From Ectocarpus siliculosus (lineage: Eukaryota > Sar > Phaeophyceae > Ectocarpales > Ectocarpaceae): DNA of 52,319 bases. Every line of letters starts with the position of its first letter. Positions within the stretch are counted from its first letter, which is position 1. Location of the stretch: assembly GCA_000310025.1 (NCBI GenBank), contig FN648742.1, forward strand, positions 3,200-55,518, read 5' to 3'. Both the position numbers and the translations under genes were made by a program. This document shows positions 5,145-50,578 of this stretch, piece by piece. The notes beneath the pieces were generated by a model. It did not search any database and had not been told where the DNA came from. It saw only the letters and a list, made by a program, of their open reading frames with translations.

Positions 5145-5217
5145 TTCCCGCACGGGAATTACATCCAGGGGACTCGCGTCGATCCTACCACGTCCAATCG
5201 CCGCGGTTGTCGCGGCG

Positions 5218-16377: not shown

Positions 16378-16399
16378 ACCTGAGGTAGCCCCCCCCGGT

Positions 16400-24427: not shown

Positions 24428-25507
24428 GGTGCGATGGCGATCGGCGTCCTAGGTTTCAAGAACTAATATGCTGCTGTGCCCACATTCCTGGCAGTTGAGC
24501 TCGGCGGTCAAAACAATACATGCGGGACAGCAATATATACCACAACAACAGGCGATCCTCATGATTGAGAAAAAATCATTTATTGAGAAAATATTTTTGT
24601 TTTTGTCGAACAAAAAATGACCAAAACATTCTTGGTAACAGGTCAGGTCCTCCAACCTTAACTAGATTCACCCCTCGCAGACGCAGTGGCCGGGAGGTCG
24701 CCAGAGACTCGGAATGTTGTCGCCTAGATTTTTTGGCGTCGATTTCAAGAAAGACACAGACAAATGAACGTTGTACCTCGTATTTCGTACGTCTGTCTGC
24801 CAACAGGTTTTGTTGATGTTCGGTGTTCGACTAGCAGACTACAGCAGTACATGTAGTTCGATATAAACAATAATGTAGATATCGCAAAATAAAAATCCCC
24901 GGTCTCTTCTCAATACTTTCTAAATGCGTACCTACCGGTCCCAACTGACGCAGGGACGCCTTCGGTGGTCGCAGGCCACCTACCATATGAGGGTATCAGA
25001 AACTCAAGAAAAAAATAGCACGGACGCGAGAAACCTCAGCACAGAATATGAAGCCATCAAACCCCTACCCACACCACAGTCATACGGCGCTGGCGACATT
25101 TCGCGAAAGCCACAACCCCTGCCTACAAGTAACCTTTTTCAACCCAACGTGTTTCTCCGTCTGGCCTACAGTAGAGTACCGTTCAATACCCCGGGCACCC
25201 ACTTGTCGTGCCTCTCTTGGGGTGCCTGTTTAGGGGTAGTGGCTCAACAACCCTTGCCCTACGAAAACTTCCTACACCTACAGCACTACCGCTTCCGTAT
25301 CTCACTGGAATATACAAAATGCACAGCACACACAATACCTAGAACGCAATTGAGAGGGGGAGAGGAATGAAGAGGAAACACGAAACTCTGCATGCAGTGG
25401 TATTTGCTGGGTTGGAAAACACGGCAGAAATGAGGCGACTACCCTCGATCGTGAGCAACATGCCTCTCGACGCCTTGTCCAATGACGATGGTGATAGAAT
25501 CTTCGTT
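24428..25507. other. Stretch downstream of gene B
   Basis: ORFs here are short and lack recognisable features. If genes A, B and C form one mobile element, its left end should lie in or before this stretch, but I found no terminal repeat. Confidence 0.4.
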
Positions 25508-28500
25508 CTACCCTTGACTGGCTTGAGTCTCTGGAACCACTTGCATGGCCTCGTTCGTTTTGTCGCCAAGATGTTTCCTTCGGCCTTCCCCAGGGCTCCT
25601 ACGCCCTTTGCCAAGGGCACCACCAACAGCCTTCCTCTTTACGGCGAGCCTCGTGCCGTGTTCGTGATATTCCATCGCAGCTTTAAGCTTGCTCTTGTTT
25701 CGTCCACTTCCGACCTCTTTGTTTGAGGTTGCGGTCGGCTTGTTGGTTTCTTCACCCCCGTTTTTCTTCCTGGACTTGCCGGCGGTCTTTCGTTCGTTCT
25801 CCTTCTGTTTGTTGGGCTTGCGCCCGTCGCCTTGGTGGTGAGAGTTGTTGCTTACATCCTCATCCGAGCTGCTGGAACTCGAGTCGCCACTGGATTCCGT
25901 ACTACGTGTGAGGTAAGCAGGCACAAATCGTCGCCGCCTTAATTCCTCGAGGGCCTCGTCAGCATCGTCCTCGTCCTCGTCGTCATCGGATGAGGGGGAG
26001 GAGGAGGAGGAGGACCGGAGTTCCTGCGCCCCCCTGTTCGTCGTACGGGCCTGCAGCGATCCGGCCTCGTTGTGATCCTCTCCTCCTCATCGTCATCTTC
26101 CTCCTCCTGGCCGTTGACTTCGTCCTCGTCGTCGGCGTCGGCGGCGTCGGCGGCGGCGGCGTACGCGGCGGCGGCGGGGGCGGCGGAGCGGGTGATGCGA
26201 TTTCCTCCCTGGGTCGTACGGGACTCGGCAACCTTGGTCTTGATCTCCTCCTCCGCCGATTCCTCCTCATTCCCCGCCGATTCGTCCGCTTCCTCTTCCT
26301 CATCCTCGTACGAGCGACCGAGATATCCCTCTCCGGCCCCCTCGTTGACAATCTCGTCGTCGTCTTCGCTGTCGTCCCCGGCGTCGTCACCGCTTGCACC
26401 CGGTGTCTTCGCCTTCTTCTTAGAAGTAGCGGCAGCACCCCCGAGGGTAGAGGTAGGCCCGGTACCGCCTGCTACCACCATATCATCGGCCGTGACAAGG
26501 ATCGTCTTCATCACGTCCGAACTGCCAGCCTTGTATGATCTGAAGTTGTAGCCGACCAGAGCGCAGCCCATGTCTGCCGTGGCCGAGGTGGCAGGAGTGG
26601 GTGGTTGCCAGCGTCCGATCATTGCTTCCTTGTCACTAGAGAGCGGCAGCGCCGACCTGATGTCCATGCGAGTTTCTCTTCGATCGGTCGACCATCTCGC
26701 CCAGTACATCAGGCAAGTTGGCGCGACCTGGAGGAATAGCTGCGCAGTCGACGAGGTGAGGCACGCCTCGCCGGGAGTGCAGCAGGCCCTCAGCTGAGCG
26801 TTGGACGCCGCCCGAATAAGACGAACGTAGCGCTTGTCGTGAGCATCCTCGTCGAGGGACAGGTACGCGTCACGCCGCGAGTCGTATACGTGGAGGCATC
26901 CCCAAATCAGCAGGTCGAAGGTGCCGGGGGTGTAGTTTACGCCAGGTGCAGTGTAGAGGGCGCGGTCGTCGAACTGAGTCTCCTGTCGATGTTGGACACG
27001 GCAGCGGGCAAAGGTGCACGGGTGACGTTCAGAGTGAGGTGGGTTGTATGGGCAAACCAAAGTACATTGCGCTGTGGATGATGAACATGCCATGCAGGCC
27101 GCGATCGTGTGGGCGTTCATGCTTAACAGGCTGAATTTATGCTTTCGCTACCTTCAGCCTAAGTTGCGGGCAGCTTGTGACTGACTGAGAGTCTACAGAG
27201 GGGGTAATAAACAAACGTAACGGTGCTTTTCGGCAGTTCTTCCTACAGGGAGCTTCGTTGCACAGTTTCTGTCACGCCTCAGCATATGGACATAAGCCTC
27301 GCTGACCGGAGAAAGAGTGTTGGCGTGGATAGAGATGTTGCAATTGCCACCAGGAATACAAACTACCAGTTGCAATAGGGAAACGTGAGTTCAAGGCGGT
27401 ATCTGTAAACGCAAGCAACACTGCTGCTTAGCCTTGCATGAGTCTCACGGATGAATCGAGGGCCACGACCTTCTTCCTGACTCGTGCGTCCGTCGGCGGA
27501 ATCGGCAGTGCCCGTGATACGCTTTAGCGCTTCGCGCACCTTCGGCGGTGTTGTATCCAGGGGTAGACCACGTGGGAGTCGGCCGGGTTTAATTTCCACT
27601 TCAGTCGGCACAACGACCTCCGGCTGTTGAACGAAATACGGAAGGGTAGGTACCGGAAACGGCGTTTCAGACACTCATGTCAGCGTGAAGGTAGGCAATG
27701 GGCAAAAATATCAGGGTGAGCTACCGGACGAGTACTCTAAAGGGGTGAGGTCAAACAAGCAAGCCCTACAGAACCTTTCGCAGTTTTTGTTGTCTGCGCC
27801 GTACACCGGAAAAGGCAAGAAAAGCCTAGACGCCCACGGCAAGGTGGTATCGCTTGCAAGATGCCAACCTGGAATATGCCCCTGGTGTACGCAGTCCGAA
27901 AGGCTGTCTCCCCCCATTCTTGGACGTGCTCCACATGCGTTTCTGACGTGACGTACGCCTCTACCCGTCGTCCTCGTGCGAGGCCTGTCGCAACGCAAGC
28001 GTTTCGTTCCGCACCGAGGACGATGATCGTGTCGCCTTGGTTGGTGTACCTGTGCACCGTTGGTTATCGAGGTATGAATAAAGTGGGTCGACAACATCTA
28101 CGATTGAGTCGACAACATCCAAGAAAAACACAACAGGTCGAATTTTGGCCGTCTGCCTGTCTGTCTGTGTGTCTGTGTGTCTGTTTGTCTTTCACTCGAC
28201 TTCTCGCTCTCTCGCTTGCTCTCTCTCACAGAGTTTGGAAAACGCACATATCTTCGTCAGTCGGTCTTCCTTTCCAACAGGATGCGATGAAGGCTACAAA
28301 ACATTCGTGGGCGAGACGGCTCAACGAAAGATCCGTTTGGACATGAACACGGTGACTCTGTATCTGCAGACGCGGTACTCTACACCCGTTTTCTGTGAGA
28401 GAATGGGTCATTTTTAACAAATCAAGGATCATGCCCCAACCCCCCACAGCTCTCCCCGTCACACGGCGTGACTGCTTCGTGTATGCTTCTTGCCCAAGCA

Positions 28501-31500
28501 TGGATTTCAACCCTCCCCCGGTAACACTAGTCGTCACCACAAGACATCAGGCCGGCAGAGATAAGGCTAACAACACCAGATGTAGTCACGAGAGTCTACA
28601 GACTTCCAAGGACGTAGACACCACTTTCACCTGTTGGTCAGTAACAACAGAACCTTGGAGGGCCAGTCCACGTCCGCCCCTTCATACGGGACATCAGTGA
28701 GGATCGATGTCGAAGAAGGCGGACTAGCTGTCTGGTTGTTCCCGAACAAGTCGTCTGTCGTCGCGGAACAGTTGACGGTGAAGCCATCGACTGGCGGGTT
28801 GGATGACCGTTGAGTCAAGTGCGCGAGCATCACACCCTCCTGACTAATCTTCAAGTGACCATGTTTTGCAGAAGCCGTGCGTCCTCCAATACCTCCAGCA
28901 TACTGCACAGTCAGCAAGTTGTCTTCGACGGATATCTAGACGGTCTTGGCGGTTAGAGCGTCTGCGTGCACACGGCCAGCGGTGGAACACGTTGGTGTTG
29001 TAATAAGGGTTGATTATCACTCGGGTATGACAACCCGGCGATGAATCGACCAACGACGTGTCGAATGGGCACGTGTTAGGCAGGGCACCTACCGAATGTT
29101 ATCTCCCGTACATGCCATCTGGACGGAGGTAACGCCTGCTCACCGTACAGGCGGCCTCTGTGGACGACCCACGGGGGGGGGACCAGAGGTGCCATAGTCC
29201 CCAAGCCGTGGAGGAAGTCGTGCCTGATAGTGTAGAAGACGTCTACGAGCTGCTGGTCGGTGATCTTGGTCTGCTTCAGGAGTCCGGGAAATGCGGCCAG
29301 GTTGAAGACGACCAGCTTGGAGGTGTTGCGAGGTTCGAGCTCGTCGAGTTGCGAGCGGCTCCTTCTGAACACGTCGTACTCTTTATGTATAACGAGCTTG
29401 TCCTCCCTGTTCGGTTGCGACGTAGGGGGTCGCCAGAAATTTCAAGGGAAAAGGAAGCTCACGAGACTGGCGTCGCCTAGGTGGTGCGGAGTCTATCAAG
29501 TCAAGTCCCACCAAGTAATGACGTTGTGTGATTGGGAGCGTACCCCCCTCGTCAGCTGCCAATATCACGTTACGACTGATATCCGTTTGAGACGATCCGT
29601 TCAACCTGCCCCGGTAACTCTAGGGTACGCCAAACTGTTGACTACCAGTATGTCATATCCACCACGCACTACAAGACCGTAAGCACTGGTCGTCGTCGGC
29701 TCTCCCCGTCGACTCCCGTCATGTTTTCTCTCTGTCTACCGTGCCTCACATGCACTCGGCGAAACGCTCATCGTCGTCTTGAGTGGTGGGTCGTGCCGTC
29801 AGCAGCTTGCCTACTGAATTCCTCTTGCACTTCCTCTGCCGACTCTTCTTCCCACCAGGCACCGCCGGCGTCGATCCCGTCACGGGGTCCCCCATTACCT
29901 TCGCTTTCCCCCGTCCCATTACCTTTCCCTCTCCCTTTCCCTTCTTCCCCTTGTCCTTCTTCGTCTTGGATTGGGATGTCGTACGGTGATCCTCCTCGTC
30001 GTCTTCTTCGTAGTCACCACCCCCCCCGTCGCCAGCCTCCATGAAGTCACAGCCACCGTTGTCGTCGTCATTTCCACTTTCCCCACAGCCGCCGTTGTCG
30101 TCGTCGTCTCCACTCCCCTCACAGCCCCCCCTGTCGTCTGCAGACGCCTCTGGTTCCGGAACAAGCTCGGCGAAATTCTGTGATAAGAGAACCCCCTGCA
30201 GCCTTTCCTCGTTCTTCTCGTACAGCTTTTTCATGCCAGGGTCCTGCTTGGCGACCTGGATACAGCAGCAGCAGCAGAATTCGTTAGTATGCGGTTATAG
30301 GGGATGGGAGCGCAGGGGATAAGGCAAGACCGCACGCACATTACGGTGACGTAGTGACGACACTCACGCGCGTCGACAAGTGAGTACCAATTGGGAGTCT
30401 ACAACACTTGCACTCGGCGTTTCGTAACTGGTTTTAATGTATACCACCGTCACTGCTTGTGCCGCACTGATATGAATGCTTTTGTATGAGGTACCTTCAG
30501 GACTCGGTTCATGGGTTTGGCGACAATAATGCGCCGCTGATCCTCGGGAACCTTGTCGCCCGGCAACTTCTCGTCAAGATCAGCTGCTAAGTCGTCCTGT
30601 TGTCGCATATGCGGTCTCACTGATCCCTCGAGACCTCCCGGCTGCTTGTGCGAGTACTTGTCTACGATCCTGACACACACGAGGGAATACGCGTAGTCGG
30701 GGAGGTCCGCATTTTGGCTTAGCTTTCAAGGACTTGCAAATGTTGTTTCGGACTCGGGTGGTCACACTCTGTTAGATTCCACGGACGATCCAAGATGTCG
30801 TTTCCGGTGTAGAGGTCAGCGCGGTGAATCAGCATGTTGCCCATCTGTTTCGCACCTAGGGTAGCCAGTGTGGGTTAGGTCGATAGGTGGCGGGGGAGTG
30901 AGGGGGGGGGGGGGTGTACTCACAGTCGTGCATGCCGTAGTCGTTAGACCATTGACCTCGCATCCCTACAAAGCCGGGACGGAGCAGGCCGGGTTCTCAC
31001 CGGACTAGACTCTCACATCACCAAGCGCGAAGCAGGGAGGTGAGGGGAACGGACTAATCCCTAAAAAACAACCTAGTGTGAAGACAATCGAGGGACGACA
31101 CGGCTGGATACCCTCTCACTCGTTAAGGGCTTTCGACCACCCGGATTCTTCACCGAAGACAGTAGCTGTTCGGACGTAAAAATCCCGATACTCCCTCGTG
31201 AGGGCCGCAAGTTGATAGGTCACCGAGAGTCGGCGCCTTGCTCTTGTCGTCGCGGCTCTTAAACCAGTGGCGAAACAACAGAAGGACATATTAGGTATGA
31301 GCACGGATGTAGGCCACAACGATAAGAGTATTTCATTTTTTCTTCTAGTGTTGGGTACAATTTCTCAGCCACTACAGTACAACCTAGAGGCATTTGAGTC
31401 ATACCTGGCAATATGCTCAAGCATGAGAGCTTGGGTTTGTTCGTTCCCAGGGGCGTCCTCTAACACCCATGGTGTGAAGGCCGTGTCGGAGAGCATGAGC

Positions 31501-32931
31501 CACGTGAAAGATCCCACGTCAATCGAGGCGTCGGAGGGCGACGATTCCTGGATACTCACGAGTCTTTGGAAAGCGGTGGAGCTCATCCTCATCATGTTTT
31601 TTGGCGACTGCGAATGACTGTGCGAGAGGGCACACTTTAGCACCCGCCTGCGTGCTGCTTTCATACAACGCGCGACGTAGTCAAGGACAACAAAATATGT
31701 CGACTTGGCACCCCGAAAAATGCACTAGGAGGGTTGCGCCCTCGATGAAGATAGTTCATTGTTCCTATCACGACACATGACGCCACGACTAAGCGAGGTA
31801 GTCGGAGGCAAGTGACGCATAAAGTGCGCTTTTTCAACCCAGGGTTACCGTGACCGATTCCGCTGGGACGCTTTACGACCAACCAATAGTACCGTTGTTC
31901 CGGAACGAAAGGGTTGTATGCGCGGCCAGATCGCCAAGCTGGCACTCGACATACGATAATATCGATAGCTGCACGACTATCATGTTCACTAACGAAAGAC
32001 ACATCATTGAAGCATGGAAAATTTCCATACCCCCCCTGCCCCGCCCCCCACGCCCCGCGCTTCGTAGCAATGGAGCTGGTTTCAATCTATCCATTTCCCT
32101 ATGCCACGAGACGCACCGTCTTGTAGGCGTCCATGAGTTGCGTGGTCGTTGGAAAGAGGCCCCCTGATTCCATGCGAAAGGCCTCACTAGTCTATTGAAG
32201 AAGAACATCCAGTCTGCAACGCCCCGAACGACAACAGCCTCCGTCACCGTATTCAGGGCTGAACGCACGAAAGGGTGTCCGTCGGCGGCGAGAGAATGTA
32301 GTCAGTCAACAATCTGGACGCCGGAAGAGCAGAAGACACGTTCTGCCTGCTGGTCGTGCCCCTAGGCGAAATGCATTGTGCTCGTCCTTCCTTGAAGGGA
32401 CGCATGATGTCAGACATGTGAACTCGTTAGAAGTCGATCCCAGCATCGAAAACGCCGTGCTGTTGGGTTAACGATAAAGTGTAGCAGCGAACGAAACAAG
32501 AAAACAAAATCGCGAGTCTAAAAGGAGCTGCTGCACCCAGTGTACTCATCACCAGCAAGAATCGTGTGCCTGACGTCCCCGAACTCTCGGTACAGCCGGA
32601 ACGGGAACTTAACGTCCGCGCCGTGAATTTCTTTGAGAGCTTGCGTCCTGTACGCGCCGTCTAATATTCGCACAGGGGCGTTCGCTAACGCATCCGAGGT
32701 TAGCTGATTGGGGGGCATGTCGGTTGACTCGATTACCACCAACGGAGTACAGTGACGAAGGAAGCCACCGTTGTTGATGGAGGTCTTGATCTTAGCTTGC
32801 CCAGAGTCGGTGACAAGATGTCCACTGATGTTGACGTTCTTCAGCGGCAATTCGTACGTGCCGAGATAGTTGGCCTCAAGCTTGGCGGTCATGTCGACAC
32901 TGGCTCCCGAAACCTGAGCATCATGAGCCAT
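25508..32931 (-). CDS. Gene B: ParB-like/methyltransferase-like fusion, paralog of gene A
   Basis: Multi-exon minus-strand gene; this span includes introns. Exons supported by phase and by match to gene A: 32,931-32,553 (ATG start; ParB-like, with RILDGAYRTQALKEIHG, residues 88-104), 32,258-32,188, 31,607-31,405, 31,257-31,120, 30,965-30,924, 30,855 to about 30,768, 30,717-30,495, 30,255-29,750 (acidic Gly/Asp repeats), 29,406-29,144 (motif IV region: KLVVFNLAAFPGLL ... FLHGLGTMAPLV), 28,922-28,631 (ILTDVPYEG), 28,049-27,869 (motif I region: YTNQGDTIIVLGAERNACVA), 27,623 to about 27,449, and a last exon from about 27,071. The last exon carries VYDSRRDAYLSL, then a long acidic/Ser-rich tail. 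Both methyltransferase motifs look degenerate, so catalysis is doubtful. Uncertain points: a junction between 31,120 and 30,965 needs an extra short exon (31,053-31,022 would fit), 30,767-30,718 is only 50 nt, and the tail changes frame near a G-run at about 26,024. The frame then stays open through RRRRFVPAYLTRSTE to a stop at 25,508. If the frame is not shifted, the product stops at 25,939. Confidence 0.75.
28140..28230. repeat. CTGT/GTCT and CT-rich simple repeat in a gene B intron
   Basis: 'ctgtctgtctgtctgtgtg' followed by 'ctcgctctctcgcttgctct'. It lies in the intron between 28,631 and 28,049. Confidence 0.9.
30903..31012 (-). repeat. Dispersed ~110-bp repeat, gene B copy
   Basis: Its reverse complement recurs at 39,270-39,380 inside a gene A intron. 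This copy contains the likely gene B exon 30,965-30,924 (MRGQWSNDYGMHD) with flanking splice sites 'tttgtag' and 'gtgagt'. Confidence 0.85.
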
Positions 32932-35900
32932 TGCCAGAAGCCCGTCTGCAGGACGCGTTTGGTTCGATTTGCGGAATCATGACAGGAGGTTATGTGAGCT
33001 AGCTTGTTGGTGGATGTCAGGTAGCCTATGAAGAAAGAAGTTCAGAGGCTCGTGGCATAACATGAGGATAATACCTATATACGAGCATTCTTAGAGTGCG
33101 GGCTCGATACATCGATCGATGAAGGGTGAACGGGGACCGAGTAATACAAAACAGACCCCGTTGTTTTCGCGACCGGAGCACCCACCTTTCAATTCCCGTC
33201 CTCAGGTTCTACGACTGTCTACAACTACTGTACCGCGATATTGGAGGACTGGTTGCTCACGGCGTTGTTCACCGAACAATATACATACCGCTGTGGATAT
33301 TGCAAAATACGCGTGGTGGGAGGAAATAAGTTGAGGCAGGGCACGCGGGCCGAGGAATCTCTAGATAGATGTTGACGAAATCTTTTGCCGTAGTAGGGGA
33401 AGTGTAGCCCACGCCTTTTTGTGTGTCGGCGTGCAGTGGGGACGAGAGAGCCTGACCGGGGAAAATCGCTCACCGAATACGCTCCGGCACACACAATAAG
33501 ATAGCACGCACACTCCCTGGACCTAATTGGTACCTCGAGCTTGTCCGCGGCGAAGAGGACGCCAAAACATTCTTTGGGACGTTGTCGCAAACCTGTCGAC
33601 AAGACGGTTACCACACCACCAGATAGATTATTTCGCCCCACCAATCACTGCTGTGGGTCAATTGGGCTCCGAATTTGGTCAAGGGGGTGATATCTCATGG
33701 CATCTACGGTAGTCGGAAAGGTGGCGTACAGAAGAGTCCCATCTCTTATTTTTTATTTCCGTTTTTCCTCGGCGTTGCCTGCAGAGTGGGAGAGGACGGG
33801 CTGTGCGTGAGTGTATCAACACCCCTTTATCGATCGTTTCCCTTGCTTCGTGCGGCATGTCACCTGCTTGATGCTGCTGCTGCAGCAGTCATATTCGTTT
33901 TAATATCGCCTCGCTTAGAATGGGTCCTCATTCCTTCCGCGGGTCCTCGCGCGGGTCATAAATAAATCATGTATGCACAGTAAACCGGGAAAACTTAGAC
34001 TTCGCGTTCAGAACTGGACTTCGCGTTGAGGAACGGTCCCGAACCGACGCCAAACCGTCGATTTGATTCCGAAAACCAAATCAAACACGTCACGGCCTGC
34101 GACACCAAACGACCAATCGCCCCAAAAACTTCCTCATCGGCCGCCGCTCCAAATGGGCACTGGTAAGCCCCTACGCTGGTGTGCGCATGCTCTGGTGTAT
34201 GGTAGACATGTTGCCGTTGCTTTGGCGCGTGTAGGCAGCACCGCGGCCTCATGGCAAAAAACCTAATCACCACGTCGGAGAGAGGGAGAGAGAACGAGCC
34301 CTCGGTCACACACACACCCAAAACGAAAGCTTTACGTGTGTCGTGGCTCCTGGCGTACATGTTGGAGACTGCTGTCCCTCGCCTCACGCACGCCCTACTC
34401 TACACACACACACACAGCACGTTGGTAGTGGATAGACAGACGTACAGCAGCAGTAGGGATAGAAGGAGAGATACAGGGCATCATCACGGGTAGGATGGAG
34501 AAGAAGAAGAAGAAGAAGAAAGAAGAGCGCAGTCGGGGCAACAACGAAAAGTCAGCCCAATCAAGGACAGGCCGATCTCGTTTGGACATCCACCCGAGCA
34601 GGGCGCGCCACAAGCAACGCCTGCCTGATTTGCTCGTGACCCTGTCGGCACGCTCTCTCTTGATACATGTGCGGGTCTATTGTGGCTCTGCCTGTACTCT
34701 CTCTTTCTCGAAACGTGTGCCGGTCGGTGGTCTATCCACCTTTTGTTTTTTCGGTCGCATGTATGTCCTCCTCCTCCTCCTCCTCCTTCTGTTTTGACCC
34801 TTCCTTGCAACGACCGCGCCTCATGTATGTATAAACAAAGTGTACGTGCTCCCTCGCACAACAACAACAACAGCACACGCGAGCACGCCTTTGACCTGTC
34901 TGTAGCTGACCTTCCACACAGCACGCGGCGAAGGAGTAGAGAGCTGCGCAAACCTAGTGGCAGAAAGGGTTGCGAGGAGAAGAGCACAGCGTGTGTACGC
35001 AGGTAGGTATGGGTAGGACTTCGCCCCCCCTCTGTCAGCGTAGGTATTGTAGTAGTCTTCTTTATGTGTGTTGTCGTACAGCAGTAACTACTGCCGTATT
35101 TCCTTCTCCGCCGTGAAACTGAACCTGCAGCAGCAGTATTCCACCACCGTCCGTTGCACAGACGGAGTGGCTAAAATGGACGTGATCATGTGTGATTGTT
35201 TGTTCGACGAGTCGAACCAAATGTTGGTGACGGGTACCGTTCGGCAAGGGTGATGAAATGGATGCACTGCTTCGATCCCCGCGGACAGGTCAGACAACAC
35301 CGGGTCCGAGAACAGCAGTGCGTTCCTGCCTAAAGACAAGCAGGGGGTCATCCGAGCTTGGTTTTGGTCGCCTATCTGGGAGAGCCCATGATGTACTTCT
35401 GCTGTAGAAGGGAGATGTCGCCTATCTGGGAGGGCCCATGATGCACTCACTGCTGCTGTAGTAGAAGAAGGGAGACGAGCCAACTTCTTCAAATTGCGAG
35501 CCAGGTACGGTGCCTCTCTCACAACAACTGCTGTGCTACTGTAGGCTACTTGTATTGGTGTTTTACATGATGAGAAGGTAGGGGTATTCGATATCAACAA
35601 CGGAAGCATGGTGTACAGACGCTCTTCCGCGACTTTGTACTGCCTGTTGATAAGCACGATGACCACTAGATCACTAGTCAGGGTTGCGGTGCGGTCGCCA
35701 TTTGACGAGGGGGGTTTCTGTGTAGTCTCACAATGAGTTTTGTCTGTTGTCACTCTTGGTGTGAAACGTCGTTCCTACTTTAGTTAAGCTCTCCTTCTGG
35801 AGCAGTGACCGATACTAGGAGTTGCAATGTCACGAGATAGATATTGTTTTGTCGTGGTGCTCGTCACGCTTTTCCTCCTTGTTTGGCTCTGTTTTGCTAT

Positions 35901-37364
35901 GCTGCCACTCCATGCCCCTTGTCTAAGCTGATGATACGTTTGGCCGCGTCTTCCATTGTCAGGGGCGTCGTTGCTTGGACCACCGCTTGGAATGGAGGAC
36001 AGGGGAGATGGAAAGAGGCTACACAGGAGTGGAACAGCTTGTAATGGAGGACAGGGGAACATGGGTCGGGGCGGTACCTTGGGAAAGCTTGAGACCACGT
36101 CTGGGGCTGCACGTGATCGAAAGAAGGCGACGCGGCGGGGCGGGGATAATAATTAGAAGTGCGTACCAATCGGATTGCAGGCCGTTTTCCCTCCCAAATA
36201 TGGAGCACGTTCGGGCAGCAAGTGGATACTCTTATTTTGTTTTAGGCGTAAGTTGGCGTAGGATTCGGTGGTAACTGTTTGTTGCGCGGGGGCATGAAGG
36301 GTGGAGCACGCACGAGGGACCACACCCGCTCCGCATGCTAGAGTGAGAGGTAGCGGCGCATCAATAATAGTATCAGCAGTGGTGTGGCAGAAGGTTCTGA
36401 GTTCGGCGTTTGTAGCGCCCCTCGTGCTTGCTGTTGTCGCAACAGGTTGGAAAGCAGCCGCATGTGATAAAGGTCGAGAGGCAGCGAGATGAGTAATCCT
36501 AGGCACGTTATTCGTGACTGTTTGTACACGCCTCTGTATACAGCATTGGCAACGTCAGGAGACGAAGCGTTGCCGTCGTCTTACAGCAACCGAATGTCTA
36601 AATGTGATGCATGTAGAGGCGCGTACTAAATTGGTACGGTTACCCACTTCGTTTGTGTGGAAGGTCCAACCCTCCAACCCTCTTCTTCAGTAGAAGAGAG
36701 TGCCCACCCAACAACACAAGAAAAGTTCCCTTTTTTTTTTTACTGTTGTACCATTGAAAGAACCAATCGTCCACTCACATAGAAACAGGGACGATGAAGC
36801 GAGGAGATGGCGGTGGCCGCCAAGCATTTCGAACAACGCATACGTTTCACACCACACTCCGTCACTCGCTGTGGGTAAACCGACGCCCGTCCAACAAAGT
36901 AGATCATTCCGCACACCGATACCGTTGGGACGTTGCACGTTGATACTGCCCAAGAAACGGGTGTGTGTCCGTCGCCTACAATTAATTCGTTCTACCGTGC
37001 TGCTACTTGAATGTGAAACGATGCGAAATTAGTCGACGGGCAAGAAACGAACAGAAAAAAATATACACCCTGAGAGAAACTGGCGAGGGTGCACTCGGGA
37101 GTTCCTCAGTAGACTCAATCATGCTCTTCCCTGGTACCTCCCCCCCCCAAAAAAAGAAGAGTACACCCTCCCAACCCCCTTCCCCTCTCCTATTGCCTTT
37201 AGTACCGGAGCAGTCTCCACACCAACGACACAGACAGCAATTATTGTTCCTTGAAGACGGCCATCTCTATATTGCCATTACCCATGTGGCCGAAAAAACA
37301 AATGCAAGAAAAAAAAACGGTAGTCGACTTCTCTGTACTACCTCTGTATGGAAAACAACAAGCT
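32932..37364. other. Inter-gene region between genes B and A
   Basis: This 4.4-kb stretch has no convincing gene. Possible exon-like frames are noted at 33,500-33,640 (minus, LRQRPKECFGVLFAADKLE, flanked by 'cgacag' and 'gtacca'), 35,220-35,340 and 35,650-35,740 (both minus). None could be joined or matched to genes A or B. Simple repeats include AAG at 34,500-34,521 and CTC near 34,768-34,790. A two-copy ~50-bp tandem repeat ('tcgcctatctgggag') lies at 35,370-35,475. Confidence 0.4.
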
Positions 37365-40300
37365 CTAGGGACTCCCGCCCTCGTCGTTGCAGGATGATTC
37401 CGTTTCCGGCGATTTGTACCATCCAGGGCGAACGACAGACAAGCCTGGTTGGACGTGTACCACCCGACCCCGGCCCTCGGCAGCAATTTCCTGGCACACC
37501 TTGAGGAACACAGGGAACTCAGTAGAGCCGGTTCCCCTGAACTTCGCAACCAGATTGCTCGTCGAGTCAGTTCGTGTACACCTGTTCCGAACCTCGTGGG
37601 TTCCAACGTTATCTTCGGATTCATCCCACAAGGCGTAGAACGCCGGGCAAGATGTGGCAACCCTAAGATAAAGGCCAGCGTCCTCGGACACGACGCTCTC
37701 TTCGGACTCCTTGCACATCCGCCTTAGCAGTTGGGTGTCAGCGACGTGAAGGAGTCGCACGTACTGGAGGTTTTCGTCGTCGTCGTCGGGTTCAATCGAA
37801 GCATAGGCCTGCTCGCGCGAATCATACACGATGTACTCCCCCCACACGGGAAGGTCGGAAGCGCCCACCTTGTAGCGCTGGGCCTCCAGGGCGAAGAGAG
37901 CCGCACGAACGCCTAGCTCTTCCGGCGGCTGCGGCACGACATGCGCACAGAGTTGGGGTTTGACGAGTTTTGAGACGAACAGGAGCAGGCAGATGGTTCT
38001 AACGAACAAGAGGGTAGAGCACTGTACAAATTGGACAACAGATTCGAGGGAGATATTGCGCAAATTAGTTTGGAGAGTTTGCGACATGAAACGGTGCACG
38101 CTACCTACATTCATTCAAGGGTTCGGTGAGACCGCGATTTTTTTTTTTTATCAGATTAAAGTTTTTGTTTCTGAGAGGCGAATCCATCATGGCCGCCCAC
38201 CTCCCGACATCCATACATACACATGCCAATACTACTGCAAATATGCAAGACAGCTTCTTGCAATAAACTCACGTCCAGGCGTACTTCCCACTGGAAGTCA
38301 CGAGCCACCTTACACGCCACTTCAACCATGGCTTGGATCCTAGCGCCTTCTTCATCCTTCCCCCCTAAAACCAAATTTGCCGTCCAGGTGTCGATTTGGT
38401 CGACGATACCTCGCGGGGTGTTCTCCGGGGGAATGCCAAGCGGCAGCGTGCCATGGCGGACTTTGTGGATGTTGGTGGCCGGTGATTTCCGCTTTGGAGA
38501 TTGGAAGCAGCAAAGTATACAGGAGTTGAGAAAGGAAGGACCGGAGCGGCGGTTGGTGGGCTTAAAGAACGCGTAACCTGCACGCATATGTAATATCTCG
38601 CTCTACTTGTAGACTACACATCCATATATATTTATATGGTATTGAACTTTCCAGCACAGTCATCGCACGTATCCCCCACGACTTTCCTACAGTAAATACC
38701 AACGACGGCAGGAAAGCGGACGCATTACCAAGCAAAAGGAAGTTGAGCAAGTCTACCTACACTCACTGGGGGGGGAGGACCTGTGTTAGGGATGTGCTGA
38801 CAAGGGGAAAGCTGCAATGCATGTCGCTATTGCACAACAACAAGTATCCTTCGGGTGCCCACCATGAATATTCCCATTCTCCAGGGGTCTTCGAAGGCTC
38901 GCTCCGCCCGTGTGATGATGCCTTCGCGCTCGTTTGGGTCCGTTAGGAACAAGCCCACATTCCGCCCGTAATTCAGTGCTGTCTCGAGGACACCGTCCTT
39001 GTCGGCGGTAAGCGTCATGACGGTGTCCCCTTGCTTCGTGAAACTTGGGGATGCATAAAACGACAGAGTATACAGAACTGTGAGGTATGAGGGTTACGGT
39101 AGGGCTTGTGCGGCATGTGGAATTCTGGTACTTGGCACTCATCGAACGAGGGTTAGGGCGTCCAGGTATGTTATTATTTGATTGAGTGAAGACGACTATC
39201 CCCCGTACACCACCCGCACAACAACAAATAGTTCTTCCCATCCTGCCGATACGCCCCCCCCCCTCGTACCTGGTCCGGTGAGAACCCGGCGTGCTCCGTC
39301 CCGGCTTTGTAGGGATGCGAGGTCAATGGTCTAACGACTACGGCATGCACGACTATGAGTACACCCCCCCCCCCCTCGTACCCCATGAAGACACACCCCA
39401 CCCCCATCTACCGCGTGGTCCGTCCTGTCAAGGACGCGTGGTTAATGGTCTACCTCGCGAGGAGAGTAACCCCCACCCTACCCACTCACGGCCCACCGCC
39501 ATCTACGCAAATGTGCTACTTAGATGGGTGAGGGGTGAGATCCCCCCCGGAAGTTGGGAACAAGAAATAAAACAAACTATATGAATGGAGATATATCCAA
39601 ACCCCACACGCCATGTGGGCATTTCATGGGTGACGAGGATGAAGTATTTTATTTTCACGTACGAGCCTCTCATGTCGCGGAGTAAAGCGGCTCGTTCAAG
39701 ACTCAGGGGCTCACCGTTGAATCCTCCAGGAGGCGACGTTGTTGTGGAAGCATCGAGAAGCCCCAAGGTAGGGAACGTCGTTCATGACGCACTCGTGGCC
39801 ATTGTTGACAGGAATCCGCTCGCCATTTGCCCAAACCTTATCCGGAACGTTCTGCGGCAGCACGTCCTTGTTGCATCGGAAGCTAGCGCCATCGGGATGA
39901 GCGATAAGAAAGATGTCGACACCCCCTGAAAGATGGTTTGCCTTGGATGTAGCTGTGATTCCACCTCCCCTCTTTCCGTACACAACCACCAGCGGATTGT
40001 CTTCTACAACCAGTCCCAAATCGGGCCGCTTGAGGGCGTCTACACGGTGAAAAAGGAGCAAACAAGAAGCAACACGACACAATCGAACAAGGACGGCGCC
40101 TGTTAGTCCGTACGTGACGGAGGGGACAAAGGGCATCGGGAGCGTCTTCTTCTTCGCGCCCAGATAGTCCCTCCAAACTCCACGTCATTCCCCGCTAAAA
40201 AAAAATCGAAAGCAAGACGACGACGACCATGCTGACGTGAAAGCTCGTACAAGAGAGAAAAAGCAATAAATAGACAACACTGACCCTCGATGCGCCGACC

Positions 40301-43300
40301 ATGGTGAAGATAGGAGTGAGGAACGTGGACGATCATGGTGCCTTCCTCGTGCAAGAAGTCGCACACGCGGTAGATGATCTTGCTCAGGCGGTCTTTCCAG
40401 GGAGCAGTTTCCCTGAGCAGATCGTCGTTCACACCGGGATCGACGAACAAGAGCATGGCCTTGTCACCGTCGACCTCGATAGGAGAGTCGGGTCCTTCCA
40501 CGCGGAAATCACGACTAAGCGGCATAGCGTCGTTGATGCGGATGCACTCAGCCCTGTATGTCGACGGCAAGCAGTGGGTGGTGGGGCATGCGGCATGGAA
40601 ACCACGGGAACAAAAAGCAAAATAATGTCAGGGTTATGGATATTCGTTTGTTTATTTATTTCTTGCTGCTTCGGGCCTAGCGTCGACCAACAAGCTCTAG
40701 AGCGAATCTTGGGGAAATGGTACTAGTAGTGTACATCGCGCCTTCATCATTCATTGTCACAGTACCTGCGTAGGGTCTTGAGGTCGTCACCCGTGCCGCC
40801 AGGCGAGGACGGGAGAGTGGGCAAGGTCGGTGCCGGTGACGAGGGCGTTGGGTCCCTCCTGGGCCTTTTCCCCTTATCCCGCGCGCCGGTTCGTCCGGAG
40901 GGGGAAGACGGACCACCGTCCTCCCCGTCTCCCGAACGTCCTGGGGCGGGGCGCTTGCTGGCATCCTGCTGGCTTTGTTCCCCCTCCTCAGGACCCTCCG
41001 GTTCCGCTGGCTCCTCTGGCTGCTGCTGTGGCTGCTTGCTGAGGTGGCAGTCCTTGCAGTCTCTGACTTTCGACGTTTCGCTGTCCTCCGAAAAGTCGGT
41101 GTTCGCGCAACCACCAGTGTGGCGAATTTTGCAGACGGAACACGAATAGCTAAGGCGAGGGGAGCGAAGAGTAATGGGGACGAGAGACAACAAGGGTGAA
41201 GAGGGCGGCGATATTTGAACACTGTCGTGTCGTAAAAGAAGTAACTCCTACTTTGTACATGGCGCGATACATAGAGGCCGCGCGAAAATATACAATTAAT
41301 GGTAAGATGGACACGAACCGGTGTTAAAGTCGACAAGAAGGGTCACACCGGGCATGGGATGCGAGCGGCGTAAACTCGCGGTGAGATTGCGACGGTCGGC
41401 CACGCGAGCGGACAGGCCGCATATGAAATATAGGCGTGTTCCCAACAGGCGTGATCATTCATCCTGTACCTCCCTGGTCCTCACCTCGAAGAGGTTGGTG
41501 CTTTGCAGACGGTGCAGGCAAGACCCTCGCTGTTAGGGTTGCCGACGGGTTCTCGTGGACGTGGTTGCACTGGCTGAGTGACTTGCAGCTTCAAGCTTCT
41601 GACCTTGTTCAAAGCGCTTTCGTACAGTTCCTCGTGCTCGACGAGCATCGGGCGAAAGTTGAGGTCTTCGCGCATGACCTGCCATACGACGAACCAACAG
41701 AAAGCAACAAAACTTTGGCCTTCCACCCGCGACTATGTCCCGCCTGTAATAATTTGCGCGGAGAAACGCGACCAACCCTCCTCGCTCGCCCCAATCCGAG
41801 TGATTGCAGATGTGCTAGTGAAACCCGTCCCAATAACGGGCAGGGGGGAAAGAAGGGTGTGTGCATATGCAAAACAGCAAAACAAACACATAATAACTAG
41901 TGCTGGGTTGGCTGCGCCCATCCACAATAACCTGTACAGAACTCGAACCGCAAGGAAAAATGCTACAAACACGCTTAGGCGAACAAAGCAAACGCAAACG
42001 CCCTAAATTGTACGGGATTCACCTTCCTGATGGTGGGATGTAGCTTCGAGCGAATGGCCAACACTACATCTTCGTCGAGCTCCTTGATGTGCGGAGGAAG
42101 CGACTCGCGGAGCTCGCGTACCTCCGCCTCTCTCTCAAGTTGGTGTGGCTTGACGTAGTTAGCGTAGTGGCCGGTCTTCACGAACGCGAAGTCGCGGACG
42201 GTGCTGTTGATGTGGGCCATGGGAACCCCGGGAAGATATTGAATGCGGTCGAGGTTAGTGAACGTTCGTCGTCTTCTTTCTAGGGTTGCCCCTACCAATC
42301 ACGGACAACCACCGCAAGAACAATATTGCCGAGTGCCACGCCCCAATCTACGTTGTCGCTGCACTCACCCCTTCAGCTTGTCTGACCATTGGTCTCTGGG
42401 CACTACGTGCTCAATACCCTCGACCCAAGACGCCGTCATCTTCGCCCGAGCCAACGCCCAGCCTATCTCGTCCAACCCCTCGCGGTCTCCTTTTTTGGAC
42501 GTCTTCGGCATCCTGCAGAAGTACCCAAACCACACGGTGGGGTTCTAATCGAGGATGGTCTGCATGGATGCATGCGTTCCGACGCTGATCGTCCGCTTAT
42601 ATTGGTATACACGAGTGATCAACATGGCAGCGTAGAACCTTTGACACAAACACTACCGCCAACAGCAATACAGTTGCAGAGGATGTCAACGACGAACGAA
42701 GCATGTTAATATATCACGCTTGTATCACACTTGGATGGTCTTACTCGTTGCCTCCCATATTGCATACCTCACGTAAATGTCGAACATGAGGGCCTGGGTT
42801 TGCGGCTGCTCTTCTTTCAAGTCCCGCACGCGAGGGTCGGCGAGGAAGGCCTTGGTGATGCTTTGGTACCCTGGAACGCGTTGATCCGTCAGAGCACGAA
42901 GCGCGATCAGTGCTTCCTGGCTCGTGTCGTTGACGATAGAAATCCACTGGCGAAGGGTGTTGGCTGCCGGTGCCTGGCTACCAGCCTGAATATTGCAGCA
43001 AAAAGCACAGAAAACAATGCTATAATACGAAAATACTGGGGCTTGTACAGTAGTAACAGTACAGTAGTAACATGGCCTGATGTCGGCGACAGGCTACAGG
43101 AATAAACACCCACCAGAAATATGGAGAGTATCAGCACCAAAAGAATGCGTCAGTCGCACTCACCCCCTTCCAGCATGACGCTAGCTTAGCCGCGGTGACA
43201 GACGGTTTCGAACGACCATTAGAAGACCGCCGGCGACCTGATGATGCCTCTTTATCCTGGCTCATCAGCGACGTCATCATCCTACTGTAGAAATAGAGCT

Positions 43301-44391
43301 GATCGTAGATTGTCCGCGCTTGGAACGTGGCCGTCGTGACGTTGCACACTGGGGTGTACAGCAGCGGCAGCGGTGGCCCAGGAGACGAGTCACCGATCCA
43401 TCGGAAATGTGTGGGTGCGTTGTTGAGGAGTCACTACCGCCACTACCGTGTCGTTGTGTCAGGAACTGCTGTACCGCAGTACACCAACTAATAATGGTGT
43501 TATTCATTGGAGTATCTCAAAAGGGTACATCGTATGCTAGTCTTGTTCGTGCGGTGTTGCTGTGTTTTTCGTGGTATCGATAATTAATTCGGTCAATTCC
43601 GCACGTGAAGAGGCGCGCGAGCAGCGACGTGCTCATCATCTCTTCGTTGCTGCTGCGGCTGCGGCTGCTGCTACTTGCTGCGCCTTTGTAACATTATCGT
43701 CTGACACCTCGACTGCTACACACACCCTAACATACAAGTAAGTATGTACCATATGCAACATACATACCCTCCAAACAAAGTACAAAAATCCGACGCAATT
43801 TCTATGACAAGCTTGAGAGGCGATAGATGTGTTTGAGAGCAGCAGGAGGAGTGCTCGTAAGTAAGCGTAATCAACAGACGTCTTCCCAACAAGACCGTGT
43901 TTGCTTCATCCACTGTCGAGAGTACACTCTTCCATCTCACCGTCAGAGGCGATTTGCCTGGCGAAGCTATCCGCGATGAACCGGTAGCACGTGCACCTGA
44001 TGAGCCGATCTTCTCCGTACACCTCCTTGCAGGCAGCCAAGCGATGATTTCCATCGATGACGACGGCATGTAGCCTAGCGGCGAGCTCGGCAGTCATCTC
44101 TTGCCCTTCTGTCAGATCCGAGAACATCACTCGCGGAAAGCTATCCACCCATCCATGAGCTTGGATGCTCTCGACGACGTCCTGCACCGCGGTCGGGCTG
44201 GTTTGCCTGCTGTTCTCCGCCAACGTGATGTGCTTTAGTGGCACGTCCCACTCCTTCACGCAGTGCGAAGCCAAGACCTCGCCGATGTTTGTTGCGCTTG
44301 TCGGATCATCACCGTGGTCACCCGCAGAAGACGAAGCACCACCACCGCCACCAACAGCACGACGCCCTCGTCCTCGCTGCCCGTTGGCCAT
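37365..44391 (-). CDS. Gene A: ParB-like/zinc-cluster/methyltransferase-like fusion
   Basis: Twelve minus-strand exons join with consistent phases to about 1,128 aa: 44,391-43,941; 43,348-43,164; 42,985-42,768; 42,512-42,369; 42,275-42,023; 41,678-41,485; 41,149-40,766; 40,553-40,285; 40,039-39,715; 39,043-38,863; 38,491-38,273; 37,928-37,365 (stop). Exon 1 starts MANGQRGRGRR and holds a ParB/Srx-like domain (about residues 50-135), with LAENSRQTSPTAVQDVVESI and VIDGNHRLAACKEVYG. Exons 6-7 give a Cys cluster (about 472-496: CTVCK ... CSVCKIRHTGGC), then a Pro/Glu/Gln-rich linker. Exons 8-10 resemble a class-beta DNA N4/N6-methyltransferase. Motif IV-like LLFVDPGVNDD is at about 644-654, FLHEEGTMIVHVPHS follows, and last comes motif I-like FTKQGDTVMTLTADKDGVLETALNYGR (about 809-835, quoted in two parts: FTKQGDTVMTLTADKD, GVLETALNYGR). 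Neither DPPY nor FxGxG is intact. Exon 12 is a domain shared with gene B (GEYIVYDSREQAY). ParB-methylase fusions occur in phages and plasmids. The role here is unknown; DNA recognition or a non-catalytic partner of gene C is inference. Confidence 0.8.
39270..39380 (+). repeat. Dispersed ~110-bp repeat, inverted copy in gene A intron
   Basis: Matches the reverse complement of 30,903-31,012 at about 95 percent by eye ('atgcgaggtcaatggtcta', 'tccggtgagaacccgg'). It lies in the intron between gene A exons 9 and 10, on the opposite strand. The donor site 'ctgtgagt' of the gene B copy is 'ctatgagt' here, so this copy could not splice the same way. A weaker third relative follows at 39,415-39,465. 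Confidence 0.85.
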
Positions 44392-45151
44392 GACAAGGTC
44401 GGTCGGAGGAGCCTTGAACCCGCGTGGCAGGACAGAGAGGAGGAAGGTGACAACAAACAAACGGAGGCCAGAGGGGGACGTACGATTGATTGTTTGGTTG
44501 ATGGGTGTCGGCACGCCACGCGGCCACGGGCATCAGCGGGCCTCCTGCGGGTCTAATCCTAAGTACGCATTCGAGGTACCCCGCTTGATTATCGGGAACA
44601 TAACGAGTAGCGTTGCCCTACGTCTCCTCTGGACTCCCTAATCTCACAGTTCGAGAAATGGGGTGTCTTAGATTAAGGAGCGCAGGGATGAACTTTGCAA
44701 TCGTAACGACCAAAATTGGGGCCGCTGGGATTATATTCTTCTTTGCGACGATTTTTCCGTTCGATTCGATTACAAACTAATCATATCGTTCGTAGAACGA
44801 GCGTTTTTTCTTTAGATCTGCGCGGAAACGTCCGCGTGTCGGTTCAGACCACGATAGATTCCGATGTAATCGAATTGGCATCTCTGGTCTCCAAAAAGAT
44901 TAAAAAAATCGTCTGGCCTCTCTCACTGGTCATTTTGATTACAAAGCGCTGCCCTGAGCCCTGTAATAAAGATGTCCGCTTGTTGATGACACATCGATTA
45001 TCGACTGCTCTACCACTCTCTCTTTCCGGGTCGAGACGCGAGAGGTACGATACAGGGAGCTCTACTTCAAGAAACCCACACACACACGCACACACACCAC
45101 AGCAACCAACCGAGGAACCAAGGGCACACGTAGTAAGCGTCCAACGAAGCG
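44392..45151. promoter_or_regulatory. Divergent intergenic region between genes A and C
   Basis: About 760 bp separates the start codons of gene A (minus) and gene C (plus), so it must hold both promoters and 5' leaders unless non-coding exons lie elsewhere. No TATA-box or other element could be assigned with confidence. An alternating 'cacacacgcacacacacc' tract precedes gene C at about 45,079. Confidence 0.5.
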
Positions 45152-48100
45152 ATGCCCGTGGCGGATTCTGCGGCATGGCTCTTCGGGAAAGCAGATACCC
45201 CAGCGGACAAAGCGCGCCGGCAGCGCGAGGAGGAAGAGAGGCGCCAGAAGAGGGCACGAACGACTCCCCTTTTCAGGAGACAGGATGACTCGGGAGACAC
45301 CCTCGGGGCTCCACAGAAACAGCAGCGTTCCAAGCGCAAGTGGGGGGAACCACAATCCGCGCAGGAGTGTTGGGAGCGCATGAAGGCAACAAGCAACGAA
45401 CAGCAGCAGCAGCAGCAGCAGCAGCAGCTGCGGTGCTGCAGGTTGAATTGCATCGAGCTGTTCGCCAACGGCGGGGGGGGTAGGGATGATGACGAGGGCG
45501 GCGCCAGCAACAGTAACCACAGCAGCAACAGCAGCAACGACAACAACAACAACAGCTTTTGTCACGACGGGGATTTCTTGGAACGGGAGCAGGCCATTTT
45601 CAAAGGGTTCACGCGAGAGGAAGACCGCAAGCGGTTCGTCACGGAGCACGTCCCCCTCGCGAAGCTAAGTCAGGGAAGCATGATCGCGGCGGGCACCCCT
45701 GTCTGCAATCGAGCCTTCAGGGAGTTCTTCAGGGTTTCCGACAGCCTCATATGTTCATGCAAAGGGACGGAAAAGGCTCCGGCGTCTAGATCAGCGACAA
45801 GGTGTGTGTGTGTGTGTGTGTTGGTTTGTGGGCTGCTAGCGTGTTGGGCCTCGTTTGGTAAATACTACCACTTACTGTCAATAAGCAGTACTACTACAGG
45901 CATGCTGCTCTCAAGATAGACATAGACTATGTAAGATTAAGTATGTTTGTAGAGATTGCAGCAGCAGTAAGTAGTAGATAGCTGTCTACTTAATTAAACA
46001 TCCATAAATACGTACATTCGATGAGCGGGCAGCTCACTTGTACTTGTCCTTTGGCCTTTGGCTGACGACGTCTTTCCCGTTCGTGCATGTTGTCACTCCT
46101 GTATCGTTCATAATTGTGTGTTGATGGGTCTGTCTAAAGATGTCCTGTGCAAAAGACCAGAGATTCACCCAAGAGGGACAGGGCCATCGGCTTCCTTCAG
46201 CACTACCAGGACACGTTCGCGCAGCACATGCCGAATTCCGACGACAAGTACCTCTACCTAAAGAACAAAAATGTATGTATGTGTACGCACTTCATATGTT
46301 TGTATGTTTGTATGTATGTAGACTATGTACTGCGCGTATGTATTTGGGTTGTGACGGGAGGGAACATTACCCTCCCTCCTCAGTTTGTGGAAGGAAGGAT
46401 AGCCCAAAGACGCCAACAAGTTTAGTCTTCTGTATGTGGTGTACTCTTGTTCCCATGGTGGTGGTGGTGGTCGTGGGTGTGCGTGTGGAGCATTGCGCAG
46501 GTAAAAAAAAGGTCGATCCGCAGTAAATTGATAATATTATATCATTTATTTGTTGACCAGTTCGTGCTGACCGAGTGGTCTATCCTAATTGTTAGCCTTT
46601 TTCTGATTGGTAATACAAGCCTACTGCTGCTGTACTCTTCTATCTACCACTACCTATCGACGAGTCGCCATTGCCACAGCAACAGCTGGAGTACGTAAAT
46701 ACTGCTACTGGCAGCCGCATCCATCCACTATCCATGCACGCCTCTCTTTTCGACTACATGTATTGTCATCTTCGCAGGAGTTGTTTGACGAGTACGAGAG
46801 CAAAACCCGGAAGGAGCTCCACGGGGAGCTAGTGGGACTGGACGCAGCCCTCTGCACGCGCGAGTACTTCAACAGGATATGGGCCCAAGAGTTCCCCCAT
46901 CTCAAGTTGAAACCAACCGGAGACTTCATGCTTTGCAAGATCTGCACGCTCCTCAAGTCTGCGATCTTCGGAACGCAGTCCGGCTCCAGAGGCATCCAGG
47001 ACGAGGCGGAAAAAGACCTGAAGAGAAAGGAGTACGACGACCACATGGAGGTGCGTATGTATGTATTTGCTATTTGCGTGGTTTACAGCGTCATACGACG
47101 ACATCACAACCCAACATGTTTTTTGAACAGACGCCACAGCAGCACAAACCCGGGGATGCACAGTATATATTAGACACCCTGTCTACCGCCTACCTCCCCA
47201 AGAAGAGGTTCCAGGGGTGGTCACACCGGCTGCTGACATGATTGTCGCGCTTACCCTTGAACACGGAGCAGCTAATCTGTGCCTTCGTGTTCGTGTCGAC
47301 AGGACGTGAGCAACGACCGGAAGGCAATCTCAAAACTTAAGACGGCTGCAGCGAATGCCAAGATGAACGGGGTGCCGTGGGACCAGCCCTACTGCATGAT
47401 GGACGGCGCCAACCAGAGCAACTTCGTTGTCCCTCTGTCCAAGGACAAGGCTCACGGGATCGACGACAAGTAAGGGAACCCGTTGCTTTAGTAACGTAGT
47501 AACAATTTGTCGAGTAGGCTACGCGGAAAACACATACTTTAATGTAATTGGTTACGTTAACTTAAATCAGCGTGGTATCAGCGAACGTGGACAGGTCACC
47601 GGTCGTGAGGAAAAGAAGAAATAGGTGGTAGTAACAGGCCCGTCGGCCCCTTCATCCACCACGAGGAATCGCAACCCCACACCCCATCGCGCGCTCGCAC
47701 CGCCCCCTGTCTAATTCCTGTTTTCCAGGGGGTATGGCGAACGCGCGAAGGTATACGGTGTGCTCGTCGCCGGGATGGTCATGAACGTGTTCTTCGCCCC
47801 CCAGATTCTCGGCACGGGTGAGTGCGCATGATGACTCACGTTTGAGGCATGTTCGAGCAGGGTGGGAGACTTTACATCTGAGAACGTAGAAGGGAGCAAG
47901 CTATTCACGGACGGTAGCAAGATAAAACTCTTTCATTGCATGTTCGTTCATGATCGAAATGTTCGCCGCTTGCTGATGAGGCTTGCGTCGGTTGGTGTTA
48001 GGGTGCATTGCCGCGCGCAGGCAGTATGCCCGACTGCCATGCTCACACCTCTAACGCAGGGAAGTACGCTTGGCAGTCGCGTTATATTTACGTTGATTGG

Positions 48101-50304: not shown

Positions 50305-50335
<31 letters not shown>

Positions 50336-50578
50336 GAGGAGGAGGAGGAGGAGGAGGAGGAGGAGGAGGAGGAGGAGGAGGAGGAGGACAACGACCTCAA
50401 TAAGGAAGGCGATACCATGCAGCAGCCTGAGAAGAACATATCGAAGAACGACAGACTACATGGGGGTGGACAGGAGAGCGGAGTAGAGGCGGGGGGGGAC
50501 ACGCACCCCGGAAGCACTGTGCAGGTCCAGGGTGTGCGGACCAGCGCGCGTGGACATGTTCCACGTAGGGAGTGGTAG
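45152..50578 (+). CDS. Gene C: DUF7869-type protein, putative RNase H-fold transposase/integrase
   Basis: Eight plus-strand exons with consistent phases: 45,152-45,801; 46,140-46,272; 46,778-47,050; 47,303-47,469; 47,729-47,817; 48,332-48,566; 48,886-49,328; 49,475-50,578. Exon 1 has a basic/acidic start, a polyglutamine run, LRCCRLNCIELF, and TPVCNRAFREFFRVSDSLI, a segment typical of the family N-terminus. Exon 3 holds REYFNRIWAQEFPHLKLK and a C-x2-C (MLCKICTLLKSAI). The core gives YCMMDGANQSNF (D386), MQVDNTVAENKNNYLMG (D469) and VGHTHIQIDQIFS (H505, H507, D511), the conserved pattern of DUF7869 proteins found in repeat-rich genomes. The C-terminal part has PFLVGKVIDKREV ... VALHWYTPRKR, an SH3-like reader-type segment, then a polyglutamate run and a charged tail. 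The last exon changes frame within a run of 10 G (49,785-49,794); with 9 G the product would be about 1,030 aa. That run may be an assembly error or a real break. Transposase activity is inferred. Confidence 0.8.
45402..45427 (+). repeat. CAG repeat encoding polyglutamine
   Basis: Nine glutamine codons, mostly CAG, within gene C exon 1. A CAACAA/CAG-rich asparagine/serine stretch follows at 45,509-45,556. Confidence 0.9.
49785..49794 (+). other. Ten-G run where gene C changes frame
   Basis: The frame entering from exon 8 ends at TAA 49,810-49,812. The neighbouring frame stays open to 50,578 and carries the conserved C-terminal segment. A one-base length difference in this homopolymer explains both. 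Confidence 0.75.
50309..50390 (+). repeat. GAG/GGA trinucleotide array encoding polyglutamate
   Basis: About 27 consecutive glutamate codons near the gene C C-terminus. Copy number is likely variable. Confidence 0.9.

Follow-up and report, generated by a model that had tools for sequence, protein, structure and literature searches.

Two long, intron-rich genes, here called A and B, lie close together in a stretch of 52,319 nucleotides of Ectocarpus siliculosus DNA (the window), and both appear to begin with a ParB-like domain that is followed by a methyltransferase-like module. They raise the question of what such proteins do in a brown alga, and whether the two genes form a tandem pair from an undescribed family, as the first-pass annotation had it. 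The window corresponds to positions 3200–55518 of contig C206, which is 55,518 bp long and ends where the window ends, and was searched against the genome of 189.5 Mb in 492 contigs.

The transposon around gene A

Gene A shares a transposon copy with a transposase gene:

33983–52319, plus strand: transposon copy, 18,337 of about 21.4 kb, the rest cut off by the contig end
33983–34263, plus strand: left terminal inverted repeat (281 bp) of gene A's transposon, with an edge common to the C50, C246, C106 and C94 copies
37365–44391, minus strand: gene A, predicted ParB/Srx plus degenerate class-beta methyltransferase protein (open model of 11 exons and 1059 aa)
44392–45152, no strand: putative divergent promoter, shared by gene A and the transposase gene and containing 11 GATTA pentamers, from pentamer counts
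45153–50578, plus strand: multi-exon transposase gene with approximate outer limits (DUF7869, E 3.1e-20 and 3.4e-5)

The left edge of the element falls at 33982/33983 in all three fetched contigs that reach it (C50, C246 and C106; five copy-bearing contigs were fetched, and C296 and C378 stop short of the edge), and its terminal 24-mer occurs at 11 genomic places, ten times exactly and once with a mismatch. A complete copy of 21,414 bp was found on C94 (48036–69449), bounded at both ends by 281-bp inverted repeats of 89% identity and by the terminal 24-mer. Sola1 DNA transposons combine a 4-bp target site duplication with a DDD transposase, and duplications of this length flank both the C94 copy (CAGA/CAGA) and the C106 copy (CTTG/CTTG); the ends of the latter lie 42 kb apart, and it presumably carries an insert of about 21 kb. 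Direct searches for terminal inverted repeats within the window found none, as the window stops at the contig end and the right end of its own copy lies beyond. AGTA, the left flank of the window's copy, is also the 4-mer that follows a right-type end on C123; this end probably belongs to the insertion seen in the window and marks its opposite side. The element thus fits, as judged from its sequence, a recently active Sola1-type cut-and-paste transposon, a name that we assume from layout, size and general features of the group rather than from comparison with the published consensus. Two GACTTCGCGTT repeats in its inverted repeat (33998–34008 and 34017–34027), with a spacing of 19 bp, may serve as a binding site for the transposase or the accessory protein. 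Elsewhere in the window, inspection of the open frames by eye suggested a Harbinger-type transposase together with a copia-like polyprotein (1699–5643) and a tyrosine recombinase with reverse transcriptase/RNase H of Ngaro/DIRS-like type (13469–16419, minus strand), and a tandem repeat array with a unit of about 110 bp, several of whose reading frames are open, spans 6173–7999.

The transposase gene stands head to head with gene A and starts 761 bp upstream of it; its putative DDD triad was placed by eye. Searching with the transposase exon returned 12 genomic matches, six of them at 97–100% identity, while exon 1 of gene A returned 11, namely eight at 97–100% identity (one with a stop) and three diverged. 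Diverged pairs of a ParB-methyltransferase gene and a transposase gene occur at C106 (exon 1 42%, transposase exon 73%) and C460 (29% and 64%), where the start of the divergent gene was seen by eye to adjoin exon 1, and a further pair at C33 is identified by position only (43% to the last exon of B, transposase 55%). On C125, a transposase match of 72% stands on a contig without a ParB exon-1 match.

An element of this kind has been described in Ectocarpus. Sola1-1_Ec32, according to the portion of the source consulted, measures 21.5 kb and carries a gene for a 1104-aa ParB and N4C/N6A methyltransferase protein opposite its transposase (PMC12477816), and the family that the first-pass annotation had called undescribed is therefore already represented in print. 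The same portion suggests self-methylation of the transposon for such proteins and names green and red algal transposon proteins as similar, citing Iyer et al. 2011 and Petroll et al. 2025. Sola1-1_Ec32 and the present element are both giant (21.5 kb against 21,414 bp here) and have the accessory gene opposite the transposase; compared by length, their accessory proteins differ, with 1104 aa against 1059 aa in our model. The consulted portion mentions neither motif loss nor further lineages nor gene B, the word "catalytic" is absent from the main text of PMC12477816, and among the papers listed by literature searches, judged by titles, no other on such proteins was found.

GATTA occurs on average 0.61 times per 761 bases, but 11 times in the putative shared promoter. 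This count is reached by 7 of 1032 sliding windows, a non-overlapping scan found the promoter to be the only comparable block, and in 12 of 2000 simulations some 5-mer attained it. The promoters of the relatives show no enrichment of GATTA (three in 1302 bases and one in 1071), and we treat the cluster, found post hoc, as a candidate binding site and a lead only. In the C460 promoter, a 22-bp block around CACAGCGCTGTG occurs twice, and in that of C106 a different 22-bp block is present in two inverted copies. Palindromes of 16 bp noted by eye in the divergent promoters were within chance by our own estimate and were discarded.

Gene A, its copies and its domains

The gene A model starts at 44391, has GT-AG introns throughout and keeps an open reading frame, with exon 1 carrying VIDGNHRLAACKE, the DVPY exon and the GDTVMTLTADKDG exon all present as originally claimed. 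A model of 1105 aa with 138 extra bases was dropped for the 1059-aa version, since the acceptor before DALK is common to B and C460; the earlier alignment, on which the Pfam, PDB, PhiCh1 and exon-block tests were run, still includes the 138-base stretch, and a newer alignment took its place in the main profile test. The domains are distributed as follows:

43941–44391, minus strand: exon 1, ParB/Srx-like domain (PHROG ParB 6.7e-4, structure model, N-terminus of M.PhiCh1-I)
40766–41678, minus strand: exons 5–6, Cys-rich CxxC region, possible zinc finger, followed by a low-complexity linker (by eye)
40285–40553, minus strand: exon 7, region aligned to motif IV with LFVDPGV replacing DPPY (global profile alignment)
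39715–40039, minus strand: exon 8, mid-module, with NDVPY at its end (profile alignment and gene model)
38863–39043, minus strand: exon 9, motif I/II block with the SAM motif lost (block score 45.1)

Across the three full-length copies (C106, C50 and C246), the exons of gene A contain no stops and no indels, against 15 indels in the introns (nine, three and three, respectively). Substitutions relative to gene A amount to 50/3180 exon and 85/3699 intron bases in C106, 7/3180 and 7/3841 in C50, where exon divergence is not below intron divergence, and 12/3180 and 37/3836 in C246. The corresponding pN/pS values are 0.79, 0.77 and 0.31, and the partial copy on C296 (771/1059 codons) gives 0.10. 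With values near 0.8 in two of the four comparisons and the exon divergence of C50, constraint among the copies is weak. Gene A might accordingly be a neutral passenger, useless to the element and persisting only through the youth of its copies, for which the two high ratios and a TAG in exon 1 of the complete C94 copy would speak. We regard this as very unlikely, as the gene is paired with the transposase in diverged lineages, the lineages have residues in common and the indels are confined to introns.

Exon 1 found a single match in the protein database, P0001 (113 aa), from a public 1715-base contig that encodes this exon at 93% identity, so that close relatives of gene A exist in other data. 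The full protein gave no hit at E ≤ 10 among the 7996 best-word-sharing candidates scored, nor did the methyltransferase part among 1470 candidates. Two scans of viral contigs yielded no relative, and Rfam and tRNA scans were empty.

The ParB/Srx fold proposed for exon 1 was supported by structure prediction, although the AlphaFold2 model reaches a mean pLDDT of only 61.3: in the PDB it most closely matches ParB, Noc and sulfiredoxin, and a GxxR-type motif is present. The N-terminus of M.PhiCh1-I aligned to the algal exon-1 profile above shuffles; the Pfam ParB_N profile matched neither gene A nor any other place in the genome. For exons 5–6, the Pfam hit to C1_2 (E 0.032) stayed under the cut-off.

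Class-beta N6/N4 DNA methyltransferases have a permuted motif order, with the motif X–I block on the C-terminal side, and their canonical motifs read (D/N/S)PP(Y/F) for motif IV and DPFxGSGTT for the SAM-binding motif I. The profile built from A, B, C106 and C460 was aligned by hhalign with that of 12 class-beta enzymes (YhdJ of E. coli plus 11 of 12 fetched phage regions, L060 omitted) and scored 47.2 over 179 columns, against 23.4 for the best of 200 column shuffles, with motifs X and I in register and their block C-terminal. Taken singly, C106 (39.0) and C460 (36.2) exceed the profile null, while A (20.6) and B (20.1) remain within it. In the exon-block tests, which used the earlier alignment, exon 9 with its motif X/I block scored 45.1 against a null maximum of 18.3 (0/100 shuffles), exon 7 with its motif IV region reached a score equalled by 43/100 shuffles and was not significant, and exon 8 placed NDVPY on DPPY over 8 columns with 5/100 shuffles reaching its score. 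The permuted class-beta-like module of the first-pass annotation is thus upheld as a whole, while its motif IV exon does not stand by itself. DVPY probably does not represent motif IV, being placed ~20 residues ahead of motif I and replaced by VPR, VPF and LPP in three other lineages. Two short alignments nevertheless point to it, that of exon 8 alone and that of B alone, whose best match of 12 columns at motif IV sets the NDVPY counterpart onto DPPY.

Conventional searches might suggest that the relationship is a chance profile match to a module of another fold. Pfam returned no methylase match in the four sequences scanned (earlier alignment) and no methyltransferase in gene A, genome-wide matches to PF01555 were two, both chance-like and sub-threshold, PDB sequence searches gave chance-like hits only, and exon 7 is not significant. 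Against the profile score, twice that of the best shuffle with motifs X and I in register, and against two lineages each exceeding the null singly, we hold this explanation to be extremely improbable; on these alignments, the later module of gene A is related to class-beta N6/N4 methyltransferases. M.PhiCh1-I of the Natrialba phage PhiCh1 has the same domain order (ParB_N E 5e-5, N6_N4_Mtase E 3.4e-35), but is a protein of 419 aa from an intronless gene without a transposase partner, has a much shorter linker and keeps its DPPY and DPFAGSGST intact.

Methylase motifs across lineages

Motif I was read in five lineages (A, B, C106, C460 and C33), leaving out C95, whose exon 9 match contains a stop, and motif IV in four, leaving out C33. 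The motif I sequences are TLTADKDGV (A), SMHAESDGV (C106), STCGDRDKT (C460), VLGAERNAC (B) and GIGVETTTA (C33). The leading D and the glycine at the fifth position are absent from all five and present in all 12 bacterial and phage controls, and the glycine site is occupied by D or E in every lineage. At the motif IV column, the global profile alignment gives LFVDPGV for A and the family alignment VFVPLGL, LFLNPGA and VVFNLAA for the others, so that the motif is non-canonical in 4/4 lineages (DPGV, PLGL, NPGA, NLAA) against (D/S)(P/L)PY in 12/12 controls. As the acidic replacement is common to the lineages, it suggests one old loss with later constraint and not separate decay. This loss across lineages is, at the level of aligned sequences, what is new here; together with the transposon around gene A it was missed by the first-pass annotation, the exons and folds of which largely held.

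The alternative that gene A encodes an active ParB-methyltransferase, which would bind to its own transposon and place N6-methyladenine or N4-methylcytosine there, has the class-beta relationship in its favour, as well as the D-P of A and the N-P of C460 retained at the first two motif IV positions, and both the domain call and the suggestion of such activity are in print, in the portion of PMC12477816 consulted. It was set aside as first choice because the motifs are lost, motif I in all five lineages and motif IV in its canonical form in all four, and no Pfam methylase match was obtained from the four sequences scanned. We therefore consider it unlikely, and the motif loss makes the published idea of self-methylation doubtful for this group.

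Gene B and the reading of the locus

Gene B lies outside the transposon, about 1 kb from its edge:

about 25508–32931, minus strand: gene B, diverged ParB-methyltransferase relative outside the transposon, with partly unclear junctions, probable relic
28936–28938, minus strand: in-frame TAG interrupting one of the conserved exons of gene B (gene model)

The element edge at 33983 places A inside the transposon and B outside it in single-copy DNA, and on this ground we reject a tandem duplication and with it the side-by-side unit of the first-pass annotation. Counterparts of the exons of A are found in B, roughly colinear but diverged. In genome-wide searches, exon 9 of A and its counterpart in B match at E 1.4e-3, and the last exon of B matches copies of the last exon of A at 38% (E 2.5e-13), its nearest match being C33 (43%, E 7e-14). 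Exon 1 of B does not find that of A at E ≤ 0.1 and has one other genomic match, at C106 (28%, E 3.1e-5). Judged by these matches, the homology of A and B is beyond chance. The region 24440–33900 is single copy except for a short dispersed repeat (at least 42 matches, with the best 40 of 587 candidates scored). A dispersed repeat of ~110–130 bp occurs at 30903–31008 in the intron region of B and, in opposite orientation, at 39270–39375 in an intron of A; it has many genomic copies and is absent from the C106 element copy.

Gene B is most likely a relic, as far as its gene model tells. The alternative that B was domesticated from such an element and now works as a functional gene of the host would agree with its single copy at the DNA level, with most of its exons being open and with a last open frame of 402 codons. 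Against this stand the in-frame TAG, for which no bypassing in-frame splice was found by eye, several unclear junctions, and the result that no matching transposase was found next to B, nor by eye in 1500 bases beyond the C123 end. Domestication thus appears distinctly unlikely.

At a probability of about 0.6, we favour the reading that gene A is an accessory gene of a recently active Sola1-type transposon and encodes a non-catalytic DNA-binding regulator, while B is an older relic. The retained fold without its motifs and the tie to the transposase in diverged lineages are most simply explained by such a regulator. Between the 281-bp inverted repeats, the head-to-head transposase and ParB-methyltransferase genes would form a unit in which protein A no longer methylates DNA; its ParB-like domain and retained fold may instead serve to bind DNA of the element itself, with the shared divergent promoter as the likeliest site, and this binding would control transposase expression or assist transposition. 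Gene B would stem from a related lineage, with the younger element having inserted beside it. Quite unlikely in its full detail is a bolder proposal, in which an ancient pseudo-methylase lost catalysis and had the acidic residue of its SAM pocket fixed before the lineages split, and now acts as a ParB-type clamp or repressor on promoter site clusters, controlling the transposon in much the way that plasmid partition proteins regulate the operons encoding them.

Algal transposons with bacterial-style ParB-methylase genes have been proposed to set epigenetic marks on themselves. Should the domain be catalytically dead in all of these lineages, as the motifs suggest, this self-marking proposal would fail for the present group, and gene A would become a candidate for a regulator that binds the DNA of a giant eukaryotic transposon. 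Its young copies, its defined ends and the candidate site in the shared promoter make this directly testable.
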